From Spirochaetota bacterium (lineage in GTDB: Bacteria > Spirochaetota > Spirochaetia > Treponematales > UBA12059), in contig JAKQKE010000209.1 of the NCBI GenBank assembly GCA_029560805.1, forward strand, positions 1 to 40,079: a stretch of 40,079 nucleotides of DNA, in the 5' to 3' direction. Under the pieces are notes generated by a model. It was not told where the DNA came from. It saw only the letters and a program-made list of their open reading frames with translations, and did no database searches. Position numbers and translations under genes: made by a program. Position 1 is the first letter of the stretch; the number at the start of each line of letters is the position of its first letter. Below, piece after piece: positions 38,401 through 39,131 of this stretch.

Positions 38401-38442
38401 ATAGAAACGGGGGCCCGAGGCCTCACCGGCCCCGGGCCCCCG
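38401..38442 (-). terminator. Intrinsic terminator after the Gly/Met-rich secreted protein gene
   Basis: CGGGGGCCCGAGGCC (38408-38422) pairs with GGCCCCGGGCCCCCG (38428-38442) around a 5-nt loop with one mismatch. Reading the minus strand it is followed by TTTCTAT. The T-run is weak but the stem is very stable. The adjacent CGATCGCC/GGCGATCG hairpin (38441-38459) lies between it and the stop at 38471. Confidence 0.7.
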
Positions 38443-38470: not shown

Positions 38471-38911
38471 TTACCAGCGGCCGCGACCGGGCTGGCCAGC
38501 TCCGCGACCGTAGCCCTGGCCTCCCATCATGCCGCCGCCGAAGCCGCCCATCCCGCCGAACTGTGACAGGTCGTAGCTCCTCGAGCCTATCGTCAGCTTC
38601 GTGGCCTGGAAGAAGAAGCTACTGGTCGCGTAGGGGACGGCCGTCTCGTAGCCCTCGAGCTTGACCGTCGCGCCTTCCTTGAGGCCGTCGACGAAGCCGT
38701 AGAGCAGCTGCGGGAGGCGTACAAAATAGGTCGTTCCCTTGACCACGATGGCGGGATGGCCCTGGACGAGCTCGAGCTTGCCCTCGACGGTCTTGATCTC
38801 CTGTGGCGGCTGGGCCTGCATCGCGGGGACTTGCGCCCTGCCGAAGCCCTGGGCGGAGACGGCGCCGATGGCGACGAGCGCCATCATGCCTACAATCACG
38901 ATCTTCTTCAT
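38471..38911 (-). CDS. Secreted small protein with Gly/Met-rich tail
   Basis: This 146-residue protein has a cleavable signal peptide (MKKIVIVGMMALVAIGAVSAQG, cleavage after VSA). A Gln/Pro/Met-rich stretch follows, then a beta-rich core (TVEGKLELVQGHPAIVVKGTTYFVRLPQLLYGFVDGLKEGATVKLEGYETAVP) that looks like a small OB- or SH3-like barrel. The tail contains GGMGGFGGGMMGGQGYGRG and ends in RGRW. I recognise no family. The Met/Gly-rich tail could bind metal or interact with the envelope; this is a guess. AAGGAG precedes ATG 38911. A consensus sigma-54 promoter lies about 60 nt upstream, so expression is probably activator-dependent. Confidence 0.7.
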   Translation of the reverse strand: MKKIVIVGMMALVAIGAVSAQGFGRAQVPAMQAQPPQEIKTVEGKLELVQGHPAIVVKGTTYFVRLPQLLYGFVDGLKEGATVKLEGYETAVPYATSSFFFQATKLTIGSRSYDLSQFGGMGGFGGGMMGGQGYGRGAGQPGRGRW

Positions 38912-38981
38912 ATCGAACTCCTTGCTGGTTCTCGATGTCGTTGGCCTAGGGCCACGGCCGACCTCGTCGACGCTTATTATT

Positions 38982-38999
38982 TAGCAAGGATCGTGCCAA
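38982..38999 (-). promoter_or_regulatory. Consensus sigma-54 (-24/-12) promoter
   Basis: On the minus strand the sequence is TTGGCACGATCCTTGCTA, matching TGGCACG-N4-TTGCW at every fixed base, with the invariant GG and GC separated by 10 nt. Transcription would start near 38972, about 60 nt before the ATG at 38911, which has AAGGAG in front of it. The -24 element lies in the right arm of a GTGCCA-N4-TGGCAC inverted repeat (38993-39008). Confidence 0.8.
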
Positions 39000-39008
39000 A
39001 TATGGCAC

Positions 39009-39106
39009 CCAACTTGTGCATTCTCTTTAATTCATTATTCTACATATATTTATCTATAAACGATCGTACTGCCGACAACGCCAACACCTATGGCTTTAGA
39101 GAGCGA
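39009..39106. other. AT-rich spacer between sigma-54 promoter and upstream palindrome
   Basis: The stretch at about 39018-39062 is markedly AT-rich compared with the rest of the window (for example TTCTACATATATTTATCTAT). It has no coding capacity on either strand. Its position between a sigma-54 promoter and a candidate enhancer is where DNA bending (for example by IHF or HU) is usually needed. No clean IHF consensus was seen. Confidence 0.4.
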
Positions 39107-39123
39107 CGTGAAATTATTTCACG
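39107..39123. promoter_or_regulatory. Candidate enhancer/operator palindrome
   Basis: CGTGAAATTATTTCACG is a 17-bp perfect inverted repeat (8-bp arms, one central base). Its centre is about 143 bp upstream of the predicted sigma-54 start, a normal distance for an activator site. It also lies 9 nt past the histidine kinase stop. A terminator role is unlikely because no T-run follows. Confidence 0.5.
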
Positions 39124-39131
39124 ATTCGTAC

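Follow-up and report, generated by a model that had tools for sequence, protein, structure and literature searches.

A conserved sigma-54 promoter and a candidate activator site upstream of a small exported protein gene in a spirochaete genome

We propose that the window (the whole stretch of 40,079 nucleotides analysed here, contig C56 of a 3.33-Mb genome, G000) carries a transcription unit under sigma-54 control that encodes one small exported protein, with the activator encoded at C174:19930-21297 acting at an upstream dyad. Taken as a whole, this explanation appears likely from the comparisons made among related loci, in which the promoter, the dyad, the fold of the mRNA leader and the linkage to the activator gene all recur. 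Small-protein matches were found in 36 of the 59 genomes searched, across several families. Named relatives of the genome are metagenome assemblies of spirochaetes and, at greater distance, Gracilinema caldarium and Treponema sp. The features of the locus are the following:

39132 to beyond 40079, minus strand: orphan histidine kinase gene directly upstream of the promoter; counterpart at L074:6477-7910; multi-span membrane N-terminus (by eye)
39107..39123, no strand: putative activator-binding dyad CGTGAAATAATTTCACG, core GNGAAA-N3-TTTCNC at 39108-39122, from conservation
39021..39062, no strand: A+T-rich stretch, 81% A+T in a window of 35% A+T; possible bend region
38982..38999, minus strand: predicted sigma-54 promoter TTGGCACG-ATCC-TTGCTA, from consensus match and conservation; predicted +1 at about 38972
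38957..38971, minus strand: predicted 5'-terminal stem-loop of the transcript; hairpin about 2-6 nt from the predicted +1 in nearly all of 25 leaders
38939..38956, minus strand: second leader stem-loop, with two-sided compensatory changes at all 7 consensus pairs
38915..38931, minus strand: GAAC-N9-GTTC, whose loop holds the Shine-Dalgarno AGGAG; sequence conserved, no covariation
38471..38911, minus strand: open reading frame of 146 aa for the small exported protein, with a signal peptide, a core of OB-fold type at about residues 37-111 and a tail rich in Gly, Met and Arg
38408..38442, minus strand: terminator-like hairpin 3' of the gene; 1 found versus 0.5 expected by shuffling

In the proposed mechanism, a membrane histidine kinase, likely that at C227:19088-20410, would sense an extracytoplasmic signal and phosphorylate the NtrC-type activator (bEBP), which would bind the dyad, loop across the A+T-rich DNA and remodel the sigma-54 RNA polymerase held at 38999-38982. 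The transcript would start near 38972 with a probably stabilising 5' stem-loop and end at the hairpin 38442-38408, and its product would be an exported OB-fold protein. Phosphorylation, looping, mRNA stabilisation and a role in the envelope are the steps that we infer.

The -24/-12 promoter and its conservation

The minus strand at 38999-38982 reads TTGGCACGATCCTTGCTA, which agrees with TGGCACG-N4-TTGCW at 12 of the 12 scored positions and keeps the GG-N10-GC spacing. A sequence-only reading of this DNA had claimed such a full-consensus -24/-12 element, with coordinates that prove correct on direct reading of the sequence, and had set two refutation tests beforehand: absence of rpoN from the genome, and loss of the -24/-12 bases upstream of orthologues. 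The rpoN gene is present in this genome and in all 59 genomes searched; therefore, its presence does not discriminate. Of 30 genomes, 27 keep the -24/-12 element at no fewer than 10 of 12 positions upstream of the small gene, 12 of them at 12/12. The claim thus withstands both tests. The same reading had called for a search for bEBP genes, and 13 strong-scoring sigma-54 activators were found (Sigma54_activat profile, E < 1e-50); five proteins of greater length match the profile more weakly and probably represent AAA+ ATPases of other kinds.

A single consensus match is weak, as about 1-3 would be expected by chance in 3.3 Mb by our estimate, and transcription of the gene might then begin at a sigma-70 promoter or at that of the kinase. 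We consider this extremely improbable: 27 of 30 orthologue leaders carry the element, against 1 of 30 for the opposite strand and 0.4% after shuffling, and a scan upstream of the gene found no sigma-70-like site. In the genus alignment, the conserved islands are the -24/-12 element and the Shine-Dalgarno region. The flanking kinase and prs genes are retained in G003, G004 and G007 and were not found outside the genus; because the promoter persists where these neighbours are gone, promoter and gene travel together. On these comparisons, a sigma-54 promoter for the small gene is almost certain.

An inverted repeat, GTGCCA-AATA-TGGCAC, is also present at 38993-39008 and had earlier been taken for a possible repressor site. 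We rejected it as an operator, as it is lost in the 88%-identical orthologue of G003 and in other members of the genus. The orthologue promoter of G054 (L086:9704-9721) reads TTGGCATGGTTTTTGTTA, with the -12 GC changed to GT.

The genome holds 8 exact TGGCAC-N5-TTGCW sites, each ahead of a correctly oriented open reading frame, and the unscored seventh position is G at 8 of 8. The seven further sites precede genes for two TAXI-type transporter binding proteins, a secreted protein, an RpoS-like sigma factor, Hsp20, a fatty-acid-transporter-like membrane protein and, at greater distance, a hemolysin III-like protein; apart from the sigma factor, these names were given by inspection. In near-duplicate loci on contigs C7 and C12 (L032, L033), a perfect -24/-12 and a gene for a TAXI-type solute-binding protein come after a bEBP gene, and L033 has overlapping TCGGCA/TGCCGA dyads upstream. 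The Hsp20 gene (by eye; L037, C166:17964) has a perfect -24/-12 with TGTTTC-N5-GAAACA upstream, and a membrane transporter gene on C301 (short-chain fatty-acid type by eye; L039) adjoins a bEBP gene and carries CCACGCAAGAATTTGCGTGG about 100 bp upstream of a perfect -24/-12. The RpoS-like sigma-70 gene (C102:27500-28380; L036, L088, L170) has a perfect -24/-12 25 bp before its start, and the element stands at 10 or more of 12 positions upstream of 22 of the 23 RpoS-like orthologues examined; a sigma-54-to-sigma-70 cascade may thus be conserved across the order. As a candidate target of the C174-type bEBP, this gene has no dyad upstream, despite its conserved -24/-12.

The upstream dyad, its candidate activator and the probable sensor kinase

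The sequence at 39107-39123 is a perfect 8+1+8 palindrome with its centre 143 bp upstream of the predicted +1. Direct reading thus bears out the earlier description of a 17-bp perfect palindrome at about that distance from the start, as well as that of an AT-rich stretch between palindrome and promoter (39021-39062), which may serve in bending. The sigma-54 enhancer-like layout that had been suggested also finds support in conservation, as in the orthologous loci about 123-251 bp separate the dyad copies from the -24 box downstream. Enhancers are usually doubled, and the dyad often is, for example in G031, G053, G033 and G028.

The consensus GNGAAA-N3-TTTCNC was suggested by comparison within the genus and thus derives partly from the sequences on which it was then scored; across 29 orthologues it is perfect in 12 and has one mismatch in 11, where shuffles expect 0.008 and 0.2. 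To control for this bias, every one of the 1024 dyads of this form was scored on equal terms and counted by genus, because kinship inflates counts of genomes. GNGAAA ranks first on both counts, perfect in 7 of 15 genera and within one mismatch in 13 of 15, whereas the runners-up reach at most 1 genus perfect and at most 4 within one mismatch. The dyad starts 8 bp past the kinase stop codon and shows some compensatory changes in its arms (GTG/CAC to GGG/CCC between G000 and G007), as might be expected if it acted in the upstream kinase transcript as a hairpin or terminator, or served as a site for a repressor. However, no T-run follows the dyad, a terminator scan found none there, and the same dyad occurs in genomes with other neighbours, at 123 to 251 bp from the -24 box and far from repressing positions; we therefore consider such a role very improbable. 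That the dyad is an activator site is, on its conservation, highly probable.

The dyad occurs once in this genome, at the small-gene locus, and once in G007, which supports the earlier suggestion of dedicated sigma-54 control. Other genomes hold several extra copies, at about the control rate; thus, the case for one target is strongest within the genus.

The candidate activator, C174:19930-21297, which the sequence-only reading could not identify, is an NtrC-type response regulator with REC, Sigma54_activat and Fis HTH domains. It falls short of the NCBIfam equivalog cut-offs for both AtoC (428 of 714 bits) and NtrC (418 of 558.6 bits). Small gene, bEBP and kinase lie on three separate contigs in this genome. 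An orthologue of the C174 type adjoins the small gene in five other genomes or loci (G041, G034, G048, L112 and L116). G041 has the small gene and a kinase-bEBP pair in divergent orientation, with back-to-back -24/-12 sites; G034 (L152:4534-8639) repeats this layout, back-to-back sites included, and adds an RpoS-like sigma gene after the pair, so that its -24/-12 sites number three; and in G048, a kinase-bEBP pair is adjacent to the small gene. Across the genomes, 30 have both gene and bEBP, 6 the gene only, 1 the bEBP only and 22 neither (Fisher 1.4e-9, a test that ignores shared ancestry, at a bEBP cut-off of 1e-120 chosen after the match list had been seen). The 6 gene-bearing genomes lacking a strong bEBP match include G008, which is 67% complete, and G005, of the same genus as the window, has neither.

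Dyad and DNA-binding domain also mostly vary together. Among the 23 genomes whose bEBP has the HTH 'REkTA-ELGITRRTLLNK', 19 have the dyad within one mismatch, and with the type 'NRTkAAeiLGvSRKTILNK' (G034, G057, G054) it is absent. There are exceptions: G048 has an NRTkAA-type HTH yet carries, 94 bp before its promoter, a dyad with one mismatch; G014, G019 and G021 show the dyad only at 2 mismatches, and G017 shows no match, though their HTH is of the RRTL type. Moreover, G013 carries a perfect dyad, GGGAAAAGATTTCCC (L160:2033-2047), 41 bp before the orthologue's ATG, although both the -24/-12 and a strong match to the C174-type bEBP are missing from this genome.

A genuine sigma-54 promoter might be served by a different member of the set of 13 bEBPs, such as a partner of the neighbouring histidine kinase; the gene of this kinase lies directly upstream of the promoter and is retained beside it in G003, G004 and G007. 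Yet no bEBP gene adjoins that kinase in these three genomes, the kinase neighbourhood is gone outside the genus where promoter and dyad persist, and the bEBPs found next to the small gene all belong to the C174 type. Such an alternative is improbable in our view, and the C174 bEBP is very likely, from linkage and co-occurrence, the activator of the small gene.

For the sensor, the kinase of the G041 pair was used as a query. Its best match in this genome is C227:19088-20410 (3.6e-45), where a second matching stretch takes in the N-terminal part, and this kinase is the probable partner of the C174 bEBP. The kinase in the window matches the G041 kinase at 7e-9 and over the catalytic part only, so it is probably not the partner; the weak match and a synteny kept only within the genus (G003, G004, G007) led us to reject it as the cognate sensor.

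The mRNA leader and the exported product

The leader of 60-70 nt, which the sequence-only reading had not mentioned, has three helices common to 14 family members. Its covariation score is 0.462 versus 0.189 in shuffled alignments (0 of 500 as high), and slid controls stay at or below 0.145. Over 25 orthologue leaders, the 5' hairpin has a mean z of -1.9, with 13 of 25 below p 0.05, and its position is consistent with the predicted start site. Of nine leaders behind other sigma-54 promoters in the genome, most show no such hairpin. An Rfam search with the leader gave no match. A 5'-terminal stem-loop usually slows mRNA decay, and that of the small-gene mRNA probably has such a stabilising effect. 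From the hairpin at 38408-38442, the unit is probably monocistronic.

The product of 38471-38911 begins MKKIVIVGMMALVAIGAVSAQG and comprises an export signal (judged by eye), the core and the Gly/Met/Arg-rich tail. It had been described as a small exported protein of unknown family; indeed, it has no family in Pfam or NCBIfam, and a PDB sequence search gave no match. AlphaFold2 predicts disordered ends on either side of a six-stranded core, which is modelled with confidence (pLDDT about 90). Structure comparison returned OB-folds broadly (SSB, PriB, aminoacyl-tRNA synthetase domains and YgiW) at Z of 6.9 or less, so that the OB-fold class is fairly secure for the model, with no closer kinship implied by such scores. 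None of 28 family members matches the Pfam BOF profile (E up to 5). In G057, a YgiW/BOF-like exported protein (by eye; L156:4565-4912) is encoded about 1.7 kb from the small gene.

Related systems and what the circuit may mean

Four known systems invite comparison. ZraSR-zraP of enteric bacteria pairs a membrane kinase with a sigma-54-dependent NtrC-type regulator, and divergent sigma-54 promoters serve the kinase-regulator genes and the gene of a small periplasmic protein (PMC4987338). The arrangement here resembles it in having an NtrC-type regulator with a membrane kinase, divergent promoters (in G041 and G034) and a single main effector, but the effector is a predicted OB-fold unrelated to ZraP, the genes are dispersed in this genome, and there is no evidence for zinc. 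ZraP is an alpha-helical zinc chaperone; the AlphaFold2 model here is all-beta. In V. cholerae, SipA/VCA0732 (YgiW/VisP, BOF proteins) is under a PhoPQ-like two-component system (PMC5636140). Both systems have a small exported or periplasmic OB-fold protein as the main target of a two-component system; however, the present family lacks a Pfam BOF match, YgiW is merely one of many OB-folds at Z of about 6, and the Vibrio system is PhoPQ-like rather than sigma-54-dependent.

By the membership tests applied, the circuit is neither ZraSR-zraP nor BOF: the bEBP scores 356 bits against an equivalog cut-off of 760 for ZraR, and the G041 kinase 89 against 479 for ZraS. Since these cut-offs are missed and BOF does not match, an envelope-stress role is an analogy and not a result. 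The nutrient, metal or envelope stress role suggested by the sequence-only reading likewise stays conjectural. Our best guess by that analogy is an envelope-protective or ligand-binding role under stress, like that of ZraP or SipA/YgiW; envelope stress itself is a possible, if somewhat doubtful, setting.

Among spirochaetes, Borrelia has the sigma-54 system Rrp2-RpoN-RpoS with an NtrC-like response regulator (PMC4014564, PMC12655853). The RpoS-like sigma gene of G034, with its own -24/-12 and adjoining the bEBP, recalls this arrangement; the differences are the 13 bEBPs, the specific conserved dyad and the secreted-protein target found here, and an RpoS-like gene that lacks the dyad. In Leptospira, EbpA-RpoN controls two putative lipoproteins and amtB and is needed under nitrogen limitation and in water (PMC12655853). 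This is likewise a spirochaete sigma-54 system controlling envelope proteins, but EbpA has GAF domains and not a receiver. In the literature searched, we found little on sigma-54 control in spirochaetes outside Borrelia and Leptospira.

Sequence comparison alone thus yields, for one circuit kept across several families of the order, a target with its promoter, enhancer motif and RNA leader, together with the activator and the kinase that likely control it. Tentatively, and with rather more doubt than confidence, we suggest that this may be an order-wide spirochaete envelope-response circuit, in which one kinase and one bEBP would be largely dedicated to one unnamed secreted OB-fold family, with its own enhancer code, GNGAAA-N3-TTTCNC, a stabilising 5' RNA and, in some lineages, coupling to a sigma-54-driven RpoS-like sigma factor. 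If true, the RpoN-to-RpoS-like cascade would be wider in spirochaetes than Borrelia. Each link gives a testable prediction, and the circuit can be tested in cultured relatives. Fold and regulator together would provide a first handle on an exported protein family that is unnamed in Pfam and NCBIfam.
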